DNA of 51,740 nucleotides from NCBI GenBank assembly GCA_026396195.1, contig JAPLXH010000002.1, positions 1-51,740 on the forward strand, given 5' to 3'. This DNA comes from Candidatus Nealsonbacteria bacterium. GTDB taxonomy: Bacteria > Patescibacteriota > Minisyncoccia > Minisyncoccales > JAGGXC01. A program made the position numbers and the translations under genes. The notes under the pieces are model-generated. The model was not told the DNA's origin and did no database searches. It was given only the letters and a program-made list of their open reading frames with translations. This document shows, piece after piece, positions 8,528-45,579 of this stretch (position 1 is its first letter; each line of letters opens with the position of its first letter).

Positions 8528-9250
8528 ATGCGAAAAAAGGAATTTTCAAAAAAACAAAAAACCGAAGAAATGGTTTCCATTATTGCTCATCAACTAAAAA
8601 GCCCGGTTGCGGCGATAAAAGGATATTTAGAGGCCTTGATTTCCGGAGATTGCGGCCAAATCAATAATTTTCAAAAAGAATATTTATCCGATGCTTTAGA
8701 GAACCTGATCAAAATGTCCGGATTTATTGATAATCTTTTGGATGTTTCCCGGATTGAAGAAGAGCATTTTGAAGTCAAACTGAAACCTACATCCCTGGAA
8801 AACGTAGCGGAAAAAGTTATTTCCGATTTGTCCGTTTGGACAGAAGCCAGCAACTGCAAAGTTCTTTTTGAAAAACCCGAGAGCTCTCTTCCTAAGGTTT
8901 TGACCGACCCTGATAAAATTGAAAAAGTTATCCAGAATTTAGTTACCAATGCCGTAAAATATAAAAAAATAGGTCCGGGCAATATTGAAATAAAAATAGA
9001 AAAAGAAGGCCAAAAAATTTTATTTTCCTGCAAAGATAATGGAATCGGAATCCCTCAAGAAGATTTAAAAAAAGTTTTTACTAAATTTTACCGCTCAAAA
9101 AAAGCCATGACGATTGATATTTTTGCTTCAGGAATAGGCCTTTATATAAATAAAGCCACAATTGAGCTTAGTGGCGGAAAAATTTGGTTTGTCAGAAACA
9201 AGAAGGGCGGTACGACCTTTTATTTCACTTTGCCTATTGTCAAAAATTAA
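8528..9250 (+). CDS. Soluble sensor histidine kinase
   Basis: 240 residues without membrane segments or a recognisable sensor domain. The H-box is IIAHQLKSPVAAIKGY with H21 as phosphorylation site. Next come the dimerisation helices, the N-box (VIQNLVTNAVKYK), G1 (DNGIGIP), F-box (FTKFYRSKKA) and G2 (ASGIGLYI). With so short an N-terminus it must sense through a partner or a cytosolic cue. No Shine-Dalgarno before ATG. The receiver protein starts 3 nt after the stop, and pilus genes follow, so it probably controls or is controlled with piliation. Confidence 0.92.
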   Translation: MRKKEFSKKQKTEEMVSIIAHQLKSPVAAIKGYLEALISGDCGQINNFQKEYLSDALENLIKMSGFIDNLLDVSRIEEEHFEVKLKPTSLENVAEKVISDLSVWTEASNCKVLFEKPESSLPKVLTDPDKIEKVIQNLVTNAVKYKKIGPGNIEIKIEKEGQKILFSCKDNGIGIPQEDLKKVFTKFYRSKKAMTIDIFASGIGLYINKATIELSGGKIWFVRNKKGGTTFYFTLPIVKN

Positions 9251-9253
9251 AAC

Positions 9254-9643
9254 ATGAGTGAAGAAAAACAAAAAATATTAATGATAGAAGAGGACCGTTT
9301 TTTAAGGAAGATTTATAAAAATAAATTATCAAAAGAAAACTTTGAATTCATTGAGGCTACCAACGGAGAGGAAGGCTTGAATAAAGTAATTTCTGAAAAT
9401 CCGGATGTCGTTTTGCTGGATTTGATTCTAACAAGAAAAAGCGGTTTTGATGTTTTGGTTGAAATGAAGAGAAACAGAAAAACCAAAAAAATTCCCGTTA
9501 TCATTCTTTCCAACCTTGGCCAGGAATCAGACATTCAGAGGGGTCTTTCTTTGGGAGCAAAAGAATATTTGGTTAAAACTGAAATTAGTCTTTCTGATGT
9601 GGTTAATAAAATAAAAGAATGGGCGGTTAAAATAAAAACATGA
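9254..9643 (+). CDS. Single-domain response regulator
   Basis: 129 residues, only a receiver domain. The acidic pocket is in MIEEDRFLR, the phospho-acceptor is D56 in VVLLDLIL, and the conserved Thr/Ser is replaced by S in IILSNLG. The conserved Lys is K108 in YLVKTE. There is no output domain, so it acts by protein contact, as CheY-like proteins do in pilus motility systems. Its TGA overlaps the pilB start (ATGA), which argues for translational coupling. Confidence 0.92.
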   Translation: MSEEKQKILMIEEDRFLRKIYKNKLSKENFEFIEATNGEEGLNKVISENPDVVLLDLILTRKSGFDVLVEMKRNRKTKKIPVIILSNLGQESDIQRGLSLGAKEYLVKTEISLSDVVNKIKEWAVKIKT

Positions 9644-11322
9644 TAATTACGGAAAATCTTTTAAAAAAAATTTTAGTTGATACTGAAATAATTTCTTTAA
9701 AAGATTTCAATTTAGCCATAGACCAAGCCTGCCAGAAATCAGAGCCTCTTGAGCAGATAATTATAGAAAAAGGATTTATTTCCGACGATGAATTAGGACA
9801 GCTTATTGCCGATGAAATCGGCTTTCCTGTTATTAATTTAAGAAAAATAAAGATAAACAAAGAAGTTTTAAGCATAGTTCCCGAGATAGTGGCAAAAAAA
9901 CAAGAAATAATTGTTTTTGAAAGGATAAAAGAAGGATTGAAGGTTGCAATGGCTAATCCCGAAAATTTGGAAATAAGAGAATTTATTGAAAGAAAAACAG
10001 GGGAAAAGGTTATCCCTTATTTTGCCACCAAAAACAGTATCAAAGATTCTTTTAAATTTTACAGGAAAGAAATCAAAGAAGAGTTTGAAGAAATTATCGG
10101 AAAAAATATAGAAGATTTAAAAAAAGTAAAAGACAAAGAAGAGCCTCTGCCGGCAATAAAAACAGTGGATTTGATTTTAAATTCGGGTTATGAAAATCGG
10201 GCTTCCGACATCCACATTGAGCCTTATGAAAATAAAATAATATTAAGATATCGAATTGACGGAGTTTTGCACGACGTTTTAACCCTGCCTAAAGAAGTTC
10301 AGGATTTTTTAGTTTCAAGAATTAAAATCATGGCTCGCTTGAGGACCGACGTTCATGATGCCGCCCAGGACGGGCATTTTTCCTTTCCAACCGCCAACGA
10401 AAAAGTTGATGTCCGGGTTTCAGTTGTTCCCATTGAAGAAGGAGAAAAAATAGTGATGAGAGTATTGGCGGAAAAATCAAAAAAATTCGACCTTAAAGAG
10501 CTGGGCTTTCTTCCTAAAGACCTGAATCTTATCAAGGAAAATTTAAAAAAGCCCTGGGGAATGATTATTTCTTCGGGTCCCACAGGTTGCGGAAAAACTA
10601 CGACGCTGTATGCATTGTTAAAAATTTTAAACACCCGCGATGTTAATATAATGACCATTGAAGACCCGATTGAGTATGACATCGAAGGGATTAATCAAAT
10701 TCAGGTTAATGCAAAAACCCATTTGACTTTTTCCAAAGGGTTAAGATCGATAATGAGACAGGACCCCAATATCATAATGGTCGGGGAAATAAGAGATTCC
10801 GAAACCGCTAAACTCGCGGTAAGCGCCGCCATGACCGGCCACTTGGTTCTTTCAACTTTCCATGCCATTGACGCTTCAACGGTTTTAACCAGGCTTACTG
10901 ACATAGGAATTGAACCCTATATCATATCTTCCACAGTCAACATTATTATTGCCCAAAGATTAGTCCGGAAAATTTGCCCTAAATGCATTGAAAGCTATGA
11001 AATTTCATCTCAGAAATTAGAAGTTCTTCTGTCCAAAGATTTAATTTCTAAGTTGCCAAAAACTAAAAAAGGAAACATCTGTCTTTTTAAAGGAAAAGGA
11101 TGTCCGGTTTGTCAGAAAACCGGATATTTGGGAAGAGTGGGTATTTTTGAAATTTTGGAAATGAACGACCCTATTAAAAAATTGGTAATGGAAAAAGCCA
11201 ATGCTTCTCAAATTAGAAATGAGGCCTTAAAGTCGGGGATGACTCCGATGATTGACGACGGTCTGTTGAAGGCGGAAAACGGCTTAACGACCCTCGAAGA
11301 AATTTTAAAAGCAGTAAAATAA
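9640..11322 (+). CDS. pilB: Type IV pilus assembly ATPase PilB
   Basis: Hexameric ATPase that powers pilus polymerisation; 560 residues. The N-terminal MshEN/GSPII_E_N region runs to about residue 150. The ATPase has Walker A GPTGCGKT (313-320), an Asp box (TIEDPIEYD), Walker B IIMVGEIRD (from 378) and a His box (STFHAIDAS). The four-cysteine zinc site is C446-x2-C449 and C488-x2-C491. Ends in the usual TTLEEILKAV. Overlaps the receiver gene by 4 nt; pilC follows after 4 nt. Confidence 0.97.
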   Translation: MIITENLLKKILVDTEIISLKDFNLAIDQACQKSEPLEQIIIEKGFISDDELGQLIADEIGFPVINLRKIKINKEVLSIVPEIVAKKQEIIVFERIKEGLKVAMANPENLEIREFIERKTGEKVIPYFATKNSIKDSFKFYRKEIKEEFEEIIGKNIEDLKKVKDKEEPLPAIKTVDLILNSGYENRASDIHIEPYENKIILRYRIDGVLHDVLTLPKEVQDFLVSRIKIMARLRTDVHDAAQDGHFSFPTANEKVDVRVSVVPIEEGEKIVMRVLAEKSKKFDLKELGFLPKDLNLIKENLKKPWGMIISSGPTGCGKTTTLYALLKILNTRDVNIMTIEDPIEYDIEGINQIQVNAKTHLTFSKGLRSIMRQDPNIIMVGEIRDSETAKLAVSAAMTGHLVLSTFHAIDASTVLTRLTDIGIEPYIISSTVNIIIAQRLVRKICPKCIESYEISSQKLEVLLSKDLISKLPKTKKGNICLFKGKGCPVCQKTGYLGRVGIFEILEMNDPIKKLVMEKANASQIRNEALKSGMTPMIDDGLLKAENGLTTLEEILKAVK

Positions 11323-11326
11323 ACCT

Positions 11327-12370
11327 ATGTTTAATTTTCAAAAAGAAAAAATGTTATTTGCCGAGCATCTTTCTTTGTTAATCAAGGGCGGAACAACCCT
11401 TAACGAGGCATTGGACATTTTGAAAGAAGAATCAAAATCAAGAACCTTTAAAAAAGCCCTGGACAGTGTTTCCAAAAGAATTTTAGAAGGAGAAAGCCTG
11501 AATAAAAGCTTGGCAAGATATCCTAAAATTTTTAATAAATTTTTTCAAAACGTGGTAAAAGTAGGGGAGGAAAGCGGAACTCTTGAGGAAAATTTAAAAT
11601 ATTTGAGCCTTTGCCTTAAAAACCAATACTCCTTAAAACAAAAATTATTGGGCGCCTTGATGTATCCCATTATTGTTATTGCCTTAGCTTTAGTTATTGT
11701 TTCAGGAACCATGATTTTTATTTTGCCAAAATTATTTACCACACTAAATGTTATTGAAGCTCAACTGCCTTTATCTACCAAAATTTTATTTGGAATCAGT
11801 GTTTTTATACAAAAATACTGGATTTTTTTAATAGTAATTTTTATTTTTTTAATTTTAATTTATAAAATTTTTAATTATATAAAAATTACCAGGTTTTATT
11901 TTCATAAAATTATTTTTTTTATGCCTTTTTTCGGAACTACCAATAAAAATAGCAATTTGGCTGAATTTTCCCGGGTTTTTTTCACTCTTCTGAAAAGCGG
12001 AGTGCCGATTCTGGAAGCTTTTGATATTTGCAATGAAACGGTAACCAGTGATGTTTATAAAAAATATTTGAAATTAGTAAAAGCTCGCGTTGAAAAGGGA
12101 CAAAAGCTCAGCAAATCTTTTAAGGCGTTTCCTAAGATTTTTCCTTCAATTTTTTCCCAGATGATTTTGGTCGGTGAAAAGTCAGGAACCCTGGAAGAAA
12201 GCATGTCTTATTTGGCTGAGTTTTACGAACAGGAAGCCGACTCGGCTCTTAAAAACTTTTCTGCAATAATAGAACCTATTCTGTTAATTTTAGTCGGATT
12301 TTTTGTTGCTTTCATTGCTCTATCCATAATTACTCCAATTTATCAGATTACCAGTAATCTGTCTCAATAA
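11327..12370 (+). CDS. pilC: Type IV pilus inner-membrane platform protein PilC
   Basis: 347 residues with the two-fold repeated T2SF domain. The first half has FAEHLSLLIKGGTTLNEALDIL and VGEESGTLEENL; the second has FSRVFFTLLKSGVPILEAF and VGEKSGTLEESMSYL. Hydrophobic segments are near residues 110-135, 160-185 and 320-342. It transmits PilB strokes to pilin subunits. About 50 residues shorter than the typical 400 because the N-terminal cytoplasmic extension is short. Confidence 0.95.
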   Translation: MFNFQKEKMLFAEHLSLLIKGGTTLNEALDILKEESKSRTFKKALDSVSKRILEGESLNKSLARYPKIFNKFFQNVVKVGEESGTLEENLKYLSLCLKNQYSLKQKLLGALMYPIIVIALALVIVSGTMIFILPKLFTTLNVIEAQLPLSTKILFGISVFIQKYWIFLIVIFIFLILIYKIFNYIKITRFYFHKIIFFMPFFGTTNKNSNLAEFSRVFFTLLKSGVPILEAFDICNETVTSDVYKKYLKLVKARVEKGQKLSKSFKAFPKIFPSIFSQMILVGEKSGTLEESMSYLAEFYEQEADSALKNFSAIIEPILLILVGFFVAFIALSIITPIYQITSNLSQ

Positions 12371-12380
12371 TTTATAATCT

Positions 12381-13340
12381 ATGACCGTAAAGAAATCTCA
12401 GAAAGCTTTTACTTTGATTGAGATTTTGCTTGTGATTGGAATATTTTCAATCTTGGCGATTCTTACTTTGCCTTTATCTTTGGATTTTTATAAAAAATAC
12501 CAGCTTGATATTTATACTCAGGAAATCGTTCAGGCCCTAAGAAGAGCTCAATTAAAGTCAATGTCAGTTGAGCAAGATTCAAGATTCGGAATTTATTTAG
12601 CCGAAGGAAACTATGTTTTATTCAGGGGCAATTCTTATGCGGTCCGGGAATTGCAATATGATGAAATTTTTGACATTCCTTATAATATTTCTTTAAGCGG
12701 GTTGTCGGAAATAGTTTTTTCTAAACTATCTGGCCTGCCATCGGTTAGTGGCGATATTATTTTAACCAATGGCAACGAAGAAAGAATTATAAATATTAAT
12801 AGCATAGGAAGAATAAGTTATAAAATAAAATTAGTATCACCACCTCCTCCGCCACCGCTCAATTGTTGGGGAACCGGAGGTTCTTGCGATTCTCTTTGTC
12901 AATATTTAAACTATGGAACTTTAACGAGTTATTATGTAAACCCAGGTTGTGCCACTTCTTGTCTTGCTACCGGTTCAATTTATGTAGGCCCAAGTGGTTT
13001 TTGTAGCACAGACGGTACGGGTAATTGTTATAAAATGGAAAGTCCTGCTGTTCAATACACTTCCTCTTCTCAGGGAACAAGTTGCAGAGGCGCTTGTTCG
13101 GGAGTATGCAGGCCTTGTACTCTTCTCCGCACCCAATCAACATGTATTAACCAACGTGGTTGTAGTTGGGTTTCAGGAAGATGTCTAGGAACATGTTTGT
13201 CGTGTTCTGATTCTTATTTTAATAATAGGGTCTTATGCGAGAATCAAAGAATTTGTTCTTGGGCAGATACAAGTTGGTATTGGAATTTAAGTAATTCTCA
13301 AAATGGATACAATTCTTATGTTACATGTCAATGGTATTGA
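12381..13340 (+). CDS. Minor pilin (GspH/FimT-like) with cysteine-rich C-terminal module
   Basis: 319 residues. The class III signal is KKSQKA then FTLIEILLVIGIF, with Glu at +5 and Ala rather than Gly at -1. The pilin domain (residues about 10-150) includes QALRRAQLKSMSVEQDSRF, as in GspH/FimT. A proline hinge (PPPPPP) leads to a module of about 155 residues with 19 cysteines, starting NCWGTGGSCDSLCQ and ending CQWY. The module includes two copies of a C-x-NQ-x2-C-S-W unit. The next two pilins carry the same module. The module is probably disulfide-rich and surface-exposed at the pilus tip (inference). Overlaps the next gene. Confidence 0.88.
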   Translation: MTVKKSQKAFTLIEILLVIGIFSILAILTLPLSLDFYKKYQLDIYTQEIVQALRRAQLKSMSVEQDSRFGIYLAEGNYVLFRGNSYAVRELQYDEIFDIPYNISLSGLSEIVFSKLSGLPSVSGDIILTNGNEERIININSIGRISYKIKLVSPPPPPPLNCWGTGGSCDSLCQYLNYGTLTSYYVNPGCATSCLATGSIYVGPSGFCSTDGTGNCYKMESPAVQYTSSSQGTSCRGACSGVCRPCTLLRTQSTCINQRGCSWVSGRCLGTCLSCSDSYFNNRVLCENQRICSWADTSWYWNLSNSQNGYNSYVTCQWY

Positions 13341-32784: not shown

Positions 32785-33525
32785 ATGACTAAAAAGCAAA
32801 AAAATTTATCAGAGTTGATTATTTTTGTTGGCCAATCTGGCGCCGGAAAAACAACTATTGCAGACGCAATTGGTTGTAAAAGGATTGCCTCTTGTGACAT
32901 TTTGCGAGAAGAAGTGGCTAATCGCGGGTTGGAAGACAATCATACTAATATTCATGCCGTAGCATTAGATTTAATTTCTCAAGACCCTGCTTGGCAAGCA
33001 AAAAAGGTTTTAAAGATGGTTAAGGATAATCAGCTTTTTATTTTTGACGGACCTAGAAATCCGGCGGACATTCAATTTTTAATGAAATCAGGCAAAAAGA
33101 TTGAAATTATTGGTATCTGTTCTCCGAGAACTGTTCGATATCAACGGGTTTTAGAGAGGGAAAAACGATTAATCACAAAAGAACAATTTATGCAGCGTTG
33201 CGTAGACGAAGTGATATGGGCAGGATTAAATAATTGCTTAAGCTTAGCTACGGTTTATGTTTTTAATAACAACAACTCTTTAGAGCAAATACATCGAACA
33301 GCAGTTTCTTTAATAGCAGCGATACAATCAAAAGATTTTCCTAAAGTCAATCCTACTTTTCAAAAAGGAATGTTAGGGTTTGAGAAATTTATTAACACTC
33401 TTTCTGTCCCTTTCGCCAATTCAGAGCGAATGTGCATGCTAATGAGAGAATATTTTAACTGGGAGAAAGAGCAATTAAAATCTTATCAGAGAAAAGAAAT
33501 TCCTTTAGAAAAATTTTTTATATGA
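32785..33525 (+). CDS. P-loop kinase (dephospho-CoA-kinase/adenylate-kinase-like)
   Basis: 246 residues. Walker A GQSGAGKT at about 16-23, then ASCDILREEVANRGL and LFIFDGPRNPADIQFL, as in archaeal UPF0200/AAA_18 kinases. LEREKRLITKEQFMQR is lid-like. An extra C-terminal part of about 65 residues has no recognised motif. Its TGA overlaps the ATG of the GHMP kinase gene, so the two are coupled and may act in one pathway. Confidence 0.8.
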   Translation: MTKKQKNLSELIIFVGQSGAGKTTIADAIGCKRIASCDILREEVANRGLEDNHTNIHAVALDLISQDPAWQAKKVLKMVKDNQLFIFDGPRNPADIQFLMKSGKKIEIIGICSPRTVRYQRVLEREKRLITKEQFMQRCVDEVIWAGLNNCLSLATVYVFNNNNSLEQIHRTAVSLIAAIQSKDFPKVNPTFQKGMLGFEKFINTLSVPFANSERMCMLMREYFNWEKEQLKSYQRKEIPLEKFFI

Positions 33526-34613
33526 AAGTTAAAGCATCTTCTTTCGATTATACTAATTGGAATGTTAATCTGTTTAAACCAGGCAAATTATTTTGGAAGC
33601 CCAATTTTTTAAGAAAATTAAAAATTGGTCAGTGGAAAAAAATAAAGATTCAAGTTCCGTGCCGATTTGACCCGATTGTTTTAGACCTTACTAAACTTCA
33701 CCCGACGGTAGAGAAAAACGATTATAAAGCTGGAGCACTAGGATTTACCGGAAAAATTTATACTCAAGCCGAAATTGAACTTATAGATAATAAAAAAATC
33801 ATAGCTGACGACATTTTAGCCGAACATGTGGCAAAAATTATTAGAACAGTCACTAAATACAACGGCGGGTTTAAAATAAAGACAAAAAATCATCCATATA
33901 GACATGTTGGTTTTGCGTCTACGGCAACGATTTGTGAGGCAGTAGCTAATGGTATAAATATATTGCTTGGCGAGCCTTTTAATAAAAAAGAAATTGTTAA
34001 GTTTATCGCTCATAATTACGGCGAAGAAAGTGAAAAAAAGAAAGACTATTTGACTCCAGGCATTTCTACTGGTAGTTCGGGGAATTTAGTCCAAAGGGGT
34101 GGGATTGGAATCACCACATCGGATTGCGAGTTAATAATTTGGGATACATATCCGAAGGGAACAAAAATTATCGCTGGCATTCCCAATGTACCAGGAGTTG
34201 GCAAGGGGCCGGAAACTTCTGATGTTGATGTTTTTTCTCTTGATTGGGTAAGACATATCGATAGATTTAATGCGGCTAAAATTTGCTATTGGTTATTAAT
34301 GGATTTTGCACCCGCCCTAAAGCAACACGATCTTAAAAAAATGGGAGCCATTCTCTATGATATTTCCTTTTGTGGTACTAAAGGAGCCCCTCTAATTGCT
34401 TTGCATGGAGGGGATTTATTAGGAATTATTCTTGAAATGCGTTTATCGGGAATAGAAGTTTGTTTTATGAGTTCAGCTGGGCCGGGCTTAATTGCTATGA
34501 CAAAAAATAAAGTTGATAAAGCAATAGAAATTTTTAACAAACATAAATGTAAAACAATAGAAATAGAACCCGACAATGAAGGATTTAAATATCAATTTTT
34601 AAAAATTCGATAA
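33522..34613 (+). CDS. GHMP-kinase-superfamily protein, resembling beta-RFAP synthase
   Basis: 363 residues. The phosphate loop is VGFASTATICEAVANGIN (PxxxGLGSSAA-like). LVQRGGIGITTS and GVGKGPETS recall beta-ribofuranosylaminobenzene-5'-phosphate synthase, the first enzyme of methanopterin synthesis. The third GHMP motif is MSSAGPGLIAM. Other GHMP kinases remain possible. Rare in reduced bacteria. Overlaps the P-loop kinase gene by ATGA and ends before a terminator. Confidence 0.75.
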   Translation: MKVKASSFDYTNWNVNLFKPGKLFWKPNFLRKLKIGQWKKIKIQVPCRFDPIVLDLTKLHPTVEKNDYKAGALGFTGKIYTQAEIELIDNKKIIADDILAEHVAKIIRTVTKYNGGFKIKTKNHPYRHVGFASTATICEAVANGINILLGEPFNKKEIVKFIAHNYGEESEKKKDYLTPGISTGSSGNLVQRGGIGITTSDCELIIWDTYPKGTKIIAGIPNVPGVGKGPETSDVDVFSLDWVRHIDRFNAAKICYWLLMDFAPALKQHDLKKMGAILYDISFCGTKGAPLIALHGGDLLGIILEMRLSGIEVCFMSSAGPGLIAMTKNKVDKAIEIFNKHKCKTIEIEPDNEGFKYQFLKIR

Positions 34614-36670: not shown

Positions 36671-37837
36671 ATGGAAGAAAAAATTGAAAATAAACAGAAA
36701 ATGGATAAATATTTTGAAACTATTATTGTTGGAGGGGGACCAGGAGGGCTAATTGCCGGCTCTTATTTAGAAAATGCTTTAATAATTGAACAAAAAAAAG
36801 AAATTGGTAAACCTGTTCAATGCGGAGAAGGAATTAGTAAAAAAGCATTAGAGATTCAAAAAATTAAACCAGATTCAGGTTGGATTTGTTGCAAAATTCA
36901 TAAAGTCGAAAGAATTATGCCAAATCAAAAAATAATTGGAAAGTCACATCAAGATATTATTGGTTATACAATTAATAGATCTAGATTTGAAAAATTTTTG
37001 GCAAAAAAATTAAAAGCCAAGATGAAATTAAATACAAGAGTTGTTGACATAAAAAAAGATAAAGATACTTGGAAGGTAACAACTTCAAGCGGTGAAATAT
37101 TTAAATCAAAATATTTAATTGGTGCTGATGGGGTAAACTCTATTGTTAGAAAGTTAATTTTTAAAAATAAATTAAATACTATTGGAGCTATCGCTTACAT
37201 AATAAAATTAGAAAAAAAAATAGACACAAGAAATCTTAAAATTTATTTTGATAACGAAAAATATCCCCAAGGTTATGCTTGGATTTTTCCGCAGTCAAAA
37301 AATACTGCCAATATTGGAATAGGAGGTAAGGATAGAAACTTAGTAAAAAAATTTAAAGATTTTTTAGAAGAGGAAGTCAAAAAAGAATACGGAAAATATT
37401 CGTTAATAGAGAATAGAAGCGGGGCCATTCCTTTAAGACCTACAGAGCTTAGTCTTTTCAAAGATAATGTTTTGTTATTAGGAGATGCTGCTGGTTTAAT
37501 TGACCCAATTTTTAAAGGAGGAATTAGTCAAGCAATGCTGTCTGGAAAAATCGCCGCTCAGTGTATTTTAGAAAATCAGACATCTCAATACGAAAAAAAA
37601 ATTAAAATGTTACCATTCGCTAATAAAAAAATTATCAAAGCAAGCGAAATTTTCAATTCTTTTGATAATCAAACTCTTAATGAGTTAGGCGAAATTTTAG
37701 AGGAAAAAGGAACTTCATATTTAAAAACTAATCAAGGGCTTTTGGAAATTAAGAGTAAGCTTTGTCTTAAAAAAAATTTTTCTAAAATTTTTGAATTTTT
37801 TTCTCTATGGTGGGATACCCGTGATTATTTATGGTAA
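36671..37837 (+). CDS. Geranylgeranyl-reductase-family flavoprotein
   Basis: 388 residues. FAD site TIIVGGGPGGLIAG at about 18-31, then PVQCGEGISKKAL (GGR signature PVxCGEG), YLIGADGVNSIVRKL, YAWIFPQSKNTANIGIGG and the second FAD motif LLLGDAAGLIDPIFKGGI. The family reduces isoprenoid double bonds (archaeal lipids, chlorophyll side chain, menaquinone). The substrate here is unknown. 15 nt separate it from the fusion gene, so both are one operon. Confidence 0.88.
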   Translation: MEEKIENKQKMDKYFETIIVGGGPGGLIAGSYLENALIIEQKKEIGKPVQCGEGISKKALEIQKIKPDSGWICCKIHKVERIMPNQKIIGKSHQDIIGYTINRSRFEKFLAKKLKAKMKLNTRVVDIKKDKDTWKVTTSSGEIFKSKYLIGADGVNSIVRKLIFKNKLNTIGAIAYIIKLEKKIDTRNLKIYFDNEKYPQGYAWIFPQSKNTANIGIGGKDRNLVKKFKDFLEEEVKKEYGKYSLIENRSGAIPLRPTELSLFKDNVLLLGDAAGLIDPIFKGGISQAMLSGKIAAQCILENQTSQYEKKIKMLPFANKKIIKASEIFNSFDNQTLNELGEILEEKGTSYLKTNQGLLEIKSKLCLKKNFSKIFEFFSLWWDTRDYLW

Positions 37838-37852
37838 TTCAAAAGGTAAGTG

Positions 37853-39769
37853 ATGCAAACAAAAATAACTAATAAAAAAATTAATATTTTAGGAGCGGGA
37901 ATTTCCGGTCTTGTATCGGGAATTGTTTTAGCAAAAAATGGTTATCAGGTTGAAATCTTTGAGAAACGTTCGAGGGTTGGAAGTTTCTTTGAAAAAGACA
38001 TACACTCTTTAAGAAATTACTCTTATGATTACGACGTGATTGAAAAATATAAAGAATTAGGAATCGAAATATCTAATATTTACCCAGTCTTCAAGGAACT
38101 TCGTTTTTCTTCTTCGTCTAAGCACATCGAGGTTTACTCCGAAAACAAACCTCTTTTTTATAACTTTATTCGAGGCTGTTCTGATGAGCGTTCTTTAGAT
38201 AACGAATTATTTGAACAAGCCAAGAGCCATGGAATTAAGTTTCATTTTAATCAAGCCGTGAATCGAGACGATAAAGATATAGATATTGTGGCCGTAGGGG
38301 CTTCTTCAGTAAAAGGGGTAGCTTATGGAAGGCATTATATAAAAGATTCTACCGCAAAGATTGATTCTATCTATTATTTGATGGGGGATTCTCATGCTCC
38401 CCATGGGTATATTTATATGGCTCCTTTTTTTAATGAATTTTCTTTAGTTATCGCTGGTACTAAAATAGAAAGTAAGAAAGAGCTTGAAGAAAGATTTAAC
38501 CTATTGATAAAGGATAATAATATCATTAAGAATTTTCTTAACGGTGCTAAGTTTAAAAATGAGATCTATGGATTTATACATTTCAATCCTCCCAAGACCG
38601 CAAAAAAAGATAAAAAGATTTATGTCGGAGAAGCGGCTGGATTCGTAGACGCAGCTACAGGTTTTGGTACACATTATGCGATTCTTTCTGGATGCTTAGC
38701 GGCCAGAGCAATTATGAACAATGAAGACTATGGTAATCTTTGGAAAAAAAGCTTCGGGAAGGAATTAAAAAAGAAGTATCTTAAAAGATTAAGACTAGAA
38801 AAGTTAAATAGTGAAAATTATGAGATGATGGTAGAAAGTTTATTAAAAATTTTTGGAAAAAGAGTTTCAGTTGAAAATTATAAAAAATACAAATTTATTC
38901 TAGTTGTAATGGAGATGATTAAAAAAGCTTTGAACTCAATACGGAATGAATTTGTTTACGGCGGGCATTTATTGTCGTTGGGCGCCTCAAGTATTGTTTT
39001 TACTTCAGCTATTTTGTTGGGAATAAAAATTACTTGGGATTGTTTATTTATTGTTTACTTGGGAATGCAGTCTGCTTATCTTTATAATCGCTATAAAGAT
39101 TTCAAAAAAGATTATTTAACAAACCCTGAAAGAACAAAACATTTTGAAAAGTATGTTTCAAAAATTCCAATAATTATCGGAATTTTTATATTAATTATTA
39201 TTTTAATGCTTTATTATTTTAGTACGCCAAAAATTTTATTTTTTGGCCTTTCTTTACTTTTAATGAGCTTACTTTATAGTAAAATTTTTAAGAATTTAAC
39301 TAAAAAAATAGTTGGCTTTAAAGGATTTTATGTTTCTTTAATGTGGGCTTCTTTATCTTTATTTCTTATATTTTATTATTATTTGTCATTCAGCTTGTCT
39401 TTATTTTTTATATTAGTTTTTATTTTTTTAAGATGGACAATAAACACAAGTTTTTGCGATATAAAAGACATAGAAAGCGATAAAAAAGAAAAACTATTGA
39501 CACTAGCGGTTGTGTTGAGAAAAGAAAAATTAATAAAATTTTTAAATATTTTAAATATTTTATCTTTTTTACCTATAATTTTGGGAGTTTTTTTTAATCT
39601 ATTTCCATTTTATTCGATAATTCTTGTTTTTACTGTTTTTTATGCGTTTTACTATTTTAAACAAGTTAACAATTTAGTAATAAGCCAGAATTTTTTGTAT
39701 AATGTAATAGTTGACGGAGAATTTATTTTGTGGTCATTTTTTATTTTATTAGGTAAAATTTTAATATGA
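37853..39769 (+). CDS. Fusion of a GGR-like flavoprotein and a UbiA-like prenyltransferase domain
   Basis: 638 residues from ATG 37853 (a GTG at 37850 adds one). Residues 10-330 are a GGR-like FAD domain: INILGAGISGLVSGIVLAKN and the second FAD site IYVGEAAGFVDAATGFGTH. Residues about 365-638 hold seven or more membrane spans. They contain two aspartate-rich motifs, N-R-Y-K-D-F-K-K-D (about 412-420, NDxxDxxxD with the second residue changed) and D-I-K-D-I-E-S-D (about 536-543), as in UbiA prenyltransferases. I infer one protein that attaches and reduces an isoprenoid chain. Overlaps the kinase gene by ATGA. Confidence 0.8.
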   Translation: MQTKITNKKINILGAGISGLVSGIVLAKNGYQVEIFEKRSRVGSFFEKDIHSLRNYSYDYDVIEKYKELGIEISNIYPVFKELRFSSSSKHIEVYSENKPLFYNFIRGCSDERSLDNELFEQAKSHGIKFHFNQAVNRDDKDIDIVAVGASSVKGVAYGRHYIKDSTAKIDSIYYLMGDSHAPHGYIYMAPFFNEFSLVIAGTKIESKKELEERFNLLIKDNNIIKNFLNGAKFKNEIYGFIHFNPPKTAKKDKKIYVGEAAGFVDAATGFGTHYAILSGCLAARAIMNNEDYGNLWKKSFGKELKKKYLKRLRLEKLNSENYEMMVESLLKIFGKRVSVENYKKYKFILVVMEMIKKALNSIRNEFVYGGHLLSLGASSIVFTSAILLGIKITWDCLFIVYLGMQSAYLYNRYKDFKKDYLTNPERTKHFEKYVSKIPIIIGIFILIIILMLYYFSTPKILFFGLSLLLMSLLYSKIFKNLTKKIVGFKGFYVSLMWASLSLFLIFYYYLSFSLSLFFILVFIFLRWTINTSFCDIKDIESDKKEKLLTLAVVLRKEKLIKFLNILNILSFLPIILGVFFNLFPFYSIILVFTVFYAFYYFKQVNNLVISQNFLYNVIVDGEFILWSFFILLGKILI

Positions 39770-41352
39770 CAGAAATTTCTTTAATTTATCAGGTTCTAGT
39801 TTTTTTAATTACTTTTTTAGGCGGATGGTTGGCTTTTTGGGTTTATTTTTTTAATCCTAAAGAAAAAATGAACCAGTGGTTTTTTTTAATGACTATTTTT
39901 CTACTTTTATGGGCTATTTTTGCTTATTTTGGCGCTTCTTCTCAAGTTTCAATATCGATTATTTTATATAGATTAAATTGGGGAGTAATTCCTTTAGCCG
40001 CTTTAGCTACTTATTTTTTTGTAGTATATTTTCCAAAAGAAGAAAAACGATATCCTTTTTTGGAAAAAATTATTATTATTGTTACTTTATTTTTTTGTTT
40101 TATTTCTTTTTTTACAGACCTAATTATTAAAGATGTTAATTCAAAAGAATGGGGGAATGAGGTTGTTTTTGGAAAACTAGGAGACACTTTTTCTATAGTA
40201 TCAGCCATTTTATTAATTATACTTTTAGGTCAACTTTTAAAAAAATACTTTAAACTTTCTCGAGCAGATAAAATAAAAGTCGAATATTTTTTAATAGGCG
40301 GCTTCCTTTGTTTTTTATTTAACCTTATATTCAATATAATTTTTCCTATTATTTTCAAAACCATCCAATACCAACACTTGGGAGATTTTTCAGCTATTTT
40401 TATTTTGGTTTTTACTGCTTATGCTATTGTTAAACAAGAATTGTTCGGAATTAAAGTTATTATTACAAGTATTTTTATTGGATTGATTGCTATCTTGCTT
40501 TCCGTAGATACTTTAGTCTTTACCGATAATTTAATTTTACAACTCTTTAAAGGATTAGCAGTTTTCATCTTTTTATATTTAGGTTTAGCATTAATAAAAA
40601 GCGTTAAGAGAGAAATTGAACAAAGAAAGGAAATAGAAAAACTGAGCAGTGCCAAGTCAGAGTTTATTGCTATTGCTTCCCATCAATTGAGAACGCCTTT
40701 GACTGCCGTAAAGGGCTATATATCCATGATTTTAGAGGGAAGTTACGGGAAGATACCGGAAAAAGCCAAAACACCCATGGAAAAGGTTTATCAGCAAAAT
40801 GAAAAATTGGTGAAATTAGTGAATGATTTGTTGAGCTTGTCCCGAATTGAATCGGGAAAGTTGCAGTTAGAACTGGGAATGGCTTCGATGGAAGATTTGA
40901 TTTCCAGCATAGTAGGCATATTTGACGTTCAAGCAAAGGATAAAAATCTTTATTTAAAATTCGAAAAGCCAAAAGAAATAATTCCTTTGATTATGATGGA
41001 CGTTGATAAAACAAGGCAGGTTATTTCCAATATAATTAACAATTGCTTGAAATACACAGAGAAGGGAGGGGTTGATATAAAATTGAAAATTGTAAATGGC
41101 AAATTGCAAATTGAAATTTCCGATACCGGACTGGGCATGGAGGAGAAAGAACTGGGGAAATTATTCCAGAGTTTCTCGAGGGGGGAAGCGGGCGCGAGAA
41201 TGGATGCCGGCGGAGCCGGACTCGGCCTTCATATTGCCAAGAAATTCATTGAAATGCAGAAGGGAAATATTTGGGCAAAGTCAGCCGGCAAAGGCAAAGG
41301 CTCTCAATTTTATATCGAGCTTCCGATAAATAACCATAATAACCATAAATAA
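39766..41352 (+). CDS. Membrane-bound sensor histidine kinase
   Basis: 528 residues. The N-terminal part has seven or eight spans to about residue 280 (7TM-type sensor). H-box FIAIASHQLRTPLTAVKGY with H306, then the N-box (VISNIINNCLKYT), G1 (DTGLGM), F-box (LFQSFSRGE) and G2 (GAGLGLHIAKKF). No response regulator is adjacent. Start overlaps the fusion gene, so it may sense membrane lipid state (inference). Confidence 0.92.
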   Translation: MTEISLIYQVLVFLITFLGGWLAFWVYFFNPKEKMNQWFFLMTIFLLLWAIFAYFGASSQVSISIILYRLNWGVIPLAALATYFFVVYFPKEEKRYPFLEKIIIIVTLFFCFISFFTDLIIKDVNSKEWGNEVVFGKLGDTFSIVSAILLIILLGQLLKKYFKLSRADKIKVEYFLIGGFLCFLFNLIFNIIFPIIFKTIQYQHLGDFSAIFILVFTAYAIVKQELFGIKVIITSIFIGLIAILLSVDTLVFTDNLILQLFKGLAVFIFLYLGLALIKSVKREIEQRKEIEKLSSAKSEFIAIASHQLRTPLTAVKGYISMILEGSYGKIPEKAKTPMEKVYQQNEKLVKLVNDLLSLSRIESGKLQLELGMASMEDLISSIVGIFDVQAKDKNLYLKFEKPKEIIPLIMMDVDKTRQVISNIINNCLKYTEKGGVDIKLKIVNGKLQIEISDTGLGMEEKELGKLFQSFSRGEAGARMDAGGAGLGLHIAKKFIEMQKGNIWAKSAGKGKGSQFYIELPINNHNNHK

Positions 41353-41673: not shown

Positions 41674-41700
41674 CCCGCGTTTGACGCGGGCTTTTGTTTT
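41674..41700 (+). terminator. Terminator upstream of leuS
   Basis: CCCGCGT (41674-41680), loop TTG, ACGCGGG (41684-41690), then CTTTTGTTTT. The in-frame TTG upstream of leuS is the loop of this hairpin, which rules it out as start. Confidence 0.85.
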
Positions 41701-44373: not shown

Positions 44374-45579
44374 ATGAAAAAAATAATTTTTATCGTGCTT
44401 GACGGGTTAGGGGACAGCCCGGTTCCTGAATTGGGAAACAAAACTCCTTTGGAAGCGGCCCAAACTCCCAACATGAACGCACTTTTAAAATCCGGCCTTT
44501 GCGGATTGCTTTCGCCGGTCCATTACAACACATTGCTTCCCACGTCGGAAGAGGGGCATTTTTCATTATTTGGCTATAGCGCCGATAAATATCCGATTCG
44601 CCGGGGATTTTTCACGGTTTTGGGCGCGGGAATTAAAATGAAAAAAGGGGATGTCGCTTTGCGGGGAAATTTTTCCACAGTTGATGATAAAATGGAAGTT
44701 GTTGACCGGCGGGCTGGCAGAGTCGATAATACCTTTGATCTGGTTAAGGCGGTGGACGGGATAAAAATTGACGGAATAAAATTTATCGTTAAATATGCCG
44801 ACGGTTATAGGGTGGGAATAGATTTACGAGGAAAAAATTTAAGTTCCGCGATTTCCGAAGGTGATCCTCATTACGGAAAACTAGAAACAGGATTAAGAAA
44901 AATAGAGCCCTTGGACGAAACCCGAGAAGCCAAGTTCACCGCCGATGTTCTGAATAAATTCTTAGAAAGGAGCCATCAGATTTTAAAGGAGCATCCTTTT
45001 AATAAAAAAAGAAAAGAACAGGGTCTATTGCCAGCCAACTATTTTTTACTTAGAGGGGTCAGTTCTTTTATAGAATTACCCAGTTTTAAAAAAAGATATG
45101 GATTGAAAGCTTGCTGTATTGCGGGTAGAAGTATTTACAAGGGAATAAGCAAGTCTTTGGGAATGAAAATTATAGAAGTAAAGGGGGCGGATGGTTCCAT
45201 CTTAACTAATTTAGCAGGTAAATTTTTATTCGCTAAAAATGCCTTAAAAAAATATGATTTTGTTTTTCTGCATATAAAAGCAATGGACTGCTTGGCCGAG
45301 GACGGAGATTGGAAGGGAAAGAAAGAATTTATTGAAAAAATCGACGAAAACTTAAAACCGCTTTTGGGCTTAAAAGATGTTTTGATAGTCATCACGGCGG
45401 ACCATTCAACCTGCTGTAATTTGAAAAGGCACTGCGATGAATTAATTCCGATTTTAATTTCAGGAACAGGTTTTGAGAATATTTCTAAGTTTTCCGAGAA
45501 GGACTGCAAGGGAGGAAAATTAGGGATTTTAAAACAAACGGATTTGATGGCAAAAATTTTAGAGCTTTACAAAAAATAA
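44374..45579 (+). CDS. apgM: Cofactor-independent phosphoglycerate mutase, archaeal type
   Basis: 401 residues. Converts 3-phosphoglycerate to 2-phosphoglycerate without bisphosphoglycerate. FIVLDGLGDSPVPELGNKTP, the catalytic-Ser region LLPTSEEGHFSLFGY, DRRAGRVDN and ITADHSTCCNLKRH are ApgM signatures and place metal-binding Asp/His residues. Typical length. This archaeal form is common in Patescibacteria. Operon with leuS (5-nt gap). Confidence 0.95.
   Translation: MKKIIFIVLDGLGDSPVPELGNKTPLEAAQTPNMNALLKSGLCGLLSPVHYNTLLPTSEEGHFSLFGYSADKYPIRRGFFTVLGAGIKMKKGDVALRGNFSTVDDKMEVVDRRAGRVDNTFDLVKAVDGIKIDGIKFIVKYADGYRVGIDLRGKNLSSAISEGDPHYGKLETGLRKIEPLDETREAKFTADVLNKFLERSHQILKEHPFNKKRKEQGLLPANYFLLRGVSSFIELPSFKKRYGLKACCIAGRSIYKGISKSLGMKIIEVKGADGSILTNLAGKFLFAKNALKKYDFVFLHIKAMDCLAEDGDWKGKKEFIEKIDENLKPLLGLKDVLIVITADHSTCCNLKRHCDELIPILISGTGFENISKFSEKDCKGGKLGILKQTDLMAKILELYKK

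Follow-up and report, generated by a model that had tools for sequence, protein, structure and literature searches.

The window, a stretch of 51,740 nucleotides from a Candidatus Nealsonbacteria contig, contains three open reading frames that lie on one strand and are separated by gaps of +12 and -4 nt (Table 1), the start of P0003 overlapping the stop of P0002 by 4 nt (ATGA). Both the reading frames and the domains confirm the arrangement that an earlier note on this DNA had described, a geranylgeranyl reductase (GGR)-like gene followed by a reductase-UbiA frame that overlaps a 7TM kinase gene. A terminator-like hairpin downstream of P0003 is a possible end of the transcription unit; the consensus scan that returned it gave six such sites in this region, where shuffled sequences gave 2.7 on average. 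The promoter scan returned 28 sites, not clearly more than the 23.1 +/- 3.6 of shuffled sequences.

Table 1. Features of the operon and of archaeal-type lipid gene clusters in related genomes (positions are those of the window unless a locus is named)
Feature	Position	Strand	Description
P0001	36671-37837	+	Geranylgeranyl reductase by family, digeranylgeranyl-glycerolipid reductase type, 388 aa
P0002	37850-39769	+	FAD2 half and UbiA half, 639 aa, GTG start
FAD2 (P0002 N-terminal half)	37850-38885	+	Diverged GGR-like flavoprotein domain
A6 run	38882-38887	+	Open frame joining the P0002 halves hinges on it
P0002 C-terminal half	38897-39769	+	UbiA-family membrane prenyltransferase domain; possible own start, ATG at 38909
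P0003	39766-41352	+	7TM sensor histidine kinase, 528 aa
Terminator-like hairpin	41674-41690	+	7 pairs, 6 of them G-C, T-rich tail; consensus scan only
Syntenic cluster, L131	L131:6880-16265		Patescibacterium of the window's order
Syntenic cluster, L135	L135:8111-16601		Patescibacterium of the window's order
Syntenic cluster, L136	L136:3942-13487		Patescibacterium of the window's order

The fusion of FAD2 to UbiA was found in one assembly only. With one A fewer in the A6 run, the first half would end in ...ENYKNTNLF-stop and the UbiA start codon would follow, an arrangement that resembles the one observed in L061 (genome G402), the nearest case with both FAD2 and UbiA, where the two are separate genes 5 nt apart (...ETYKNETKG-stop, then ATG). 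The joined frame may have arisen by a genuine fusion in the recent past, or it may reflect an error of a single base in the assembly; given its dependence on A6 and the separate genes in L061, we did not accept the fusion as an established feature. The conclusions on linkage, lipid genes and function presented here do not rest on it.

P0001 scores 187.4 bits against the GG-reductase family model TIGR02032 (cut-off 158.8) and possesses a GGR_cat domain. Among solved structures, its best match is the DGGGPL reductase 3oz2 of the PDB (4e-32), with which it shares the PVxCGEG and GYxWxFP motifs, and the FAD-binding GxGxxG signature is present. It differs from that enzyme type in staying below two equivalog cut-offs, with 118.7 bits against NF041160 (cut-off 780) and 107.5 against NF041080 (cut-off 580), and in being encoded together with UbiA and kinase genes. 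P0001 is 46-50% identical to the GGRs of archaeal-type lipid clusters in three related genomes (G413, G415 and G416), 55% identical to that of L088 and 44% to that of L078, and in the tree all of these form a single clade with 99/99 support. The family score, the 3oz2 motifs and the clade bear out the earlier reading of P0001 as GGR-like, and its sequence marks P0001 as an archaeal-type GGR that very probably reduces geranylgeranyl chains. The second GGR-like domain that had been claimed, FAD2, stands less securely: it retains the Rossmann GxGxxG and a weak similarity to TIGR02032, but its 59.4 bits lie below the cut-off and the CGEG cysteine motif of GGRs is missing. The tree also showed that the GGR-like flavoenzymes now found beside a UbiA of the kinase-linked clade come from three separate lineages.

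The C-terminal half of P0002 matches the UbiA family PF01040 with 54.6 bits, above the gathering cut-off of 34.2. Its second Asp motif is intact (DIKDIESD, for DxxDxxxD), whereas its first reads NRxxDxxxD in place of the canonical NDxxDxxxD. Across a 22-member alignment of the UbiA group, motif 2 is kept and Lys190, Asp191 and Asp195 are invariant; motif 1 is non-canonical throughout the group and lost in three distant members. The altered motif 1, most degenerate in L018, L020 and L021, and the near-constant pairing with a kinase described below could suggest that the UbiA half has lost its catalytic activity and binds lipid as a sensory subunit for the kinase, a reading that we consider highly improbable given the retention of motif 2 and of the three invariant residues, and given that isoprenoid-synthesis genes adjoin most of the loci.

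The group profile finds its best PDB match in the DGGGP synthase 6m31, and DGGGP synthase models (NF009521/NF009522) rank high in frequency among the weak matches of the group in NCBIfam. The UbiA half shares with these enzymes the PF01040 domain and motif 2, but scores 23.1 bits against a DGGGP synthase cut-off of 353, and in the tree all 33 kinase-linked UbiA sequences used are split from the GGGP synthase-linked DGGGP synthases of the order (100/99). Score, motif 1 and separate clade led us to reject P0002 as a member of the DGGGP synthases, from which its clade differs further in that a GGGP synthase is usually absent from the same genome. Phylogeny, one of the checks that the earlier note had proposed, places P0001 with the archaeal-lipid GGRs and the UbiA half apart from the DGGGP synthases; the PF01040 score supports the UbiA assignment, while a role in archaeal lipids is not established for this half. 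Judged by its sequence, the UbiA half probably acts as a prenyltransferase on GGPP and belongs to a clade with its own history.

From 379 genomes of the phylum, 247 genomes of the order and a scan of GTDB contigs, we collected 35 loci of the UbiA group. Those whose records name a group belong to Patescibacteria, plus one contig labelled Calditrichaeota. The gene following UbiA encodes a 7TM kinase in 28 of the 34 loci with downstream sequence, overlapping it in 22, and in four others the 7TM kinase comes after one extra gene. L088 instead has a histidine kinase with a GAF domain, so the arrangement does not strictly require a 7TM sensor. Within eight genes of UbiA, a GGPP synthase is found in 19 loci, Idi in eight, a GGR in seven and FAD2 in two; 24 of the 35 loci have one or more of these nearby, and the remaining 11 have no isoprenoid gene within that distance. 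Regulators with a receiver domain lie near 13 loci. In L078, the gene order is GGPP synthase, GGR, UbiA, kinase. Searches of the openly licensed literature turned up no paper on UbiA-histidine kinase pairs in CPR bacteria, nor any activity, lipid or signalling results for the proteins described here. On the contig labelled Calditrichaeota (L106:5905-8599), a UbiA of the clade is followed, as read by eye, by an NtrC-like activator, which could reflect either transfer or mis-binning.

P0003 comprises HisKA, HATPase_c and HisKA_7TM domains. Against HisKA_7TM (PF16927) the whole protein scores 28.5 bits, at the edge of the cut-off (28.6), and the N-terminal 295 residues alone score 30.7. Among the kinases of the group, 18 of 20 N-terminal domains match this family; what sets them apart from other HisKA_7TM kinases is their gene-for-gene coupling to a UbiA protein. 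A sequence search of the PDB with the 7TM profile gave no match. The conserved linkage makes membrane sensing by P0003 plausible.

In isoprenoid quorum sensing of the ComQ-ComX-ComP kind, the gene of an isoprenoid-transferring enzyme likewise lies beside that of a multi-pass histidine kinase. The UbiA-kinase pair shares this layout, and the UbiA protein might make an isoprenoid signal, either released or kept in the membrane, for detection by the 7TM kinase. The tight, conserved pairing of enzyme and receptor kinase, the receiver-only regulators near 13 UbiA loci and the tailoring genes that vary from locus to locus, such as the methyltransferase in L093 and L095, all accord with a signal synthase and its receptor. 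The comparison, which is drawn from general knowledge, has its limits: the enzyme is UbiA and not ComQ, neither a ComX-like peptide gene nor a signal or exporter was identified, and the kinase of L088 is of the GAF and not the 7TM type. We regard this explanation as unlikely.

Some loci carry a further gene between UbiA and the 7TM kinase. In L093 (6810-7709) and L095 (2527-3420) it encodes a SAM-dependent methyltransferase resembling geranyl-diphosphate and cyclopropane-lipid methyltransferases, and in L018 (10226-11212) and L109 (1218-2111) a protein of ~300 residues. The latter two were considered as terpene synthases from motifs read by eye and were set aside, with no support from Pfam (L018), NCBIfam or the PDB. 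The methyltransferase of L093 is also similar to tocopherol- or quinone-type enzymes, and the UbiA group shows weak matches to MenA-type and homogentisate phytyltransferase models, as might be expected if the product of UbiA were a redox cofactor, prenylated and quinone-like or of another type, with the kinase sensing redox state. These matches lie far under cut-off, however, and the neighbourhoods examined contain no quinone-ring genes, which leaves such a cofactor with very little probability.

The assembly from which the window derives (792 kb, 98.7% complete, 13 contigs) contains a GGGP synthase that scores 214.2 bits against TIGR01769 (equivalog cut-off 161.55), a single polyprenyl synthase, which is a GGPP synthase, and an archaetidylinositol-phosphate-synthase-like (AIPS-like) gene. 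It also encodes a G1P-dehydrogenase-like protein whose best NCBIfam match is NF002022 (137 bits, cut-off 413) and whose best PDB matches include the archaeal G1P dehydrogenase 5fb3. CarS was not found in the genome, and the only CdsA is of bacterial type (20.8 bits, cut-off 22). In this genome, the pathway of the operon probably overlaps an archaeal-type G1P ether-lipid route that comprises the G1P-dehydrogenase-like protein, GGGP synthase, GGPP synthase and GGR. The idea of archaeal-style saturated ether lipids, put forward in the earlier note, is therefore largely right for P0001 and for the genome, though not secured for the UbiA half. The search for isoprenoid supply genes that accompanied it found the GGPP synthase; of the MEP and mevalonate steps searched in the 13-contig assembly, IspH and HMG-CoA reductase are absent, which fits the use of imported isoprenoid precursors.

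Archaeal-type lipid genes recur in related genomes. A GGGP synthase is present in 11 of the 247 genomes of the order, and three of these relatives (G413, G415 and G416) carry a syntenic cluster in the order CarS-x-x-PlsY-GGR-DGGGPS-GGPPS-GGGPS-PlsY, with an AIPS-like gene in L131 and L136 and bacterial housekeeping genes on the L131 contig. Contamination was rejected as the source of these genes, since all three genomes share the gene order and the G416 contig includes bacterial genes for ClpP, trigger factor and H+-PPase. Archaeal-type lipid genes in bacteria have been described in Ca. Cloacimonetes, the FCB group and one Ca. Parcubacteria genome, the last with GGGP and DGGGP synthases, and co-localisation within bacteria was seen only in Cloacimonetes (PMC7852524). 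The Patescibacteria studied here likewise hold GGGP synthase, DGGGP synthase, GGR and GGPP synthase in bacterial genomes, but in several of them the GGGP and DGGGP synthase genes adjoin, and in three CarS and GGR are part of the cluster. In L138 (928-3925), a GGGP synthase gene adjoins HMG-CoA reductase and GHMP kinase genes, and in L139 (2410-7977), Idi, GGR, UbiA, GGPP synthase and GGGP synthase form one run, after which comes a gene homologous to the HMG-CoA reductase gene of L138; together these suggest mevalonate-fed ether-lipid synthesis in some members.

The main rival to a distinct isoprenoid read by the kinase is an ether-lipid step carried out by P0002, in which the UbiA half would act as the DGGGP synthase between GGGP synthase and P0001, with CdsA and the AIPS-like protein finishing the head group. 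The window's genome has the GGGP synthase, GGPP synthase, G1P-dehydrogenase-like, AIPS-like and CdsA genes and just two UbiA genes, neither a canonical DGGGP synthase, so that P0002 could fill this step. The 6m31 match and the frequent weak DGGGP synthase matches point the same way, as does G448, a member of the same family that has a DGGGP synthase beside its GGGP synthase. Against this stand the score and the separate clade of the UbiA half and the distribution of the clade across the order: 15 of the 19 genomes with a kinase-linked UbiA have no GGGP synthase, and G416 holds both UbiA kinds, the clade member and a DGGGP synthase. The clade and GGGP synthase do co-occur in four genomes (P = 0.006), a result that is suggestive only, because the genomes are related. 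We consider ether-lipid synthesis proper a possible but distinctly less probable function of P0002, and it is the 15 genomes and G416 that lead us to favour a distinct membrane isoprenoid that is read by the kinase.

The explanation that we prefer, and in which our confidence is about even, is that the operon serves membrane isoprenoid tailoring and sensing in a Paceibacteria-type patescibacterium. GGPP would be made by the cell's own GGPP synthase from IPP and DMAPP that are imported or otherwise supplied, and the UbiA protein would transfer it to a membrane acceptor. P0001 would saturate the chains partly or fully, possibly together with FAD2. The co-translated 7TM kinase would then respond to this product or the membrane that it forms, and signal through a receiver-only response regulator. 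A bolder proposal, that Patescibacteria possess a new class of two-component systems in which the co-translated 7TM kinase has as its ligand an isoprenoid made by a dedicated UbiA-type enzyme and tailored by recruited reductases, we offer as speculation with a rather low chance of being correct; if true, it would mean an isoprenoid signal or a sensor of the cell's own lipids in bacteria presumed to depend on host lipids.

Patescibacteria (CPR bacteria) are tiny and depend on hosts. They have been described as putative symbionts that cannot synthesise membrane lipids (PMC7242380). For the question of where their membrane lipids come from, the kinase-tied UbiA clade and the archaeal-type lipid genes provide concrete, testable enzymes, and the operon may help to explain both where these cells get their membranes and how they watch them. 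The contiguous CarS-GGR-DGGGPS-GGPPS-GGGPS clusters bear on the lipid divide and, if active, could allow a CPR bacterium to make archaeal-type lipids itself.

Elsewhere in the window, a histidine kinase and a response regulator head a type IV pilus operon (8528-13340) that encodes PilB-like and PilC-like proteins and a protein with an N-methylation motif. A P-loop kinase-like gene (32785-33525) has as its neighbour the gene for a GHMP-type protein (33522-34613) with weak similarity to beta-RFAP synthase. Downstream of the operon, at 44374-45579, lies the gene for an archaeal-type (ApgM) cofactor-independent phosphoglycerate mutase, here in a bacterial genome.
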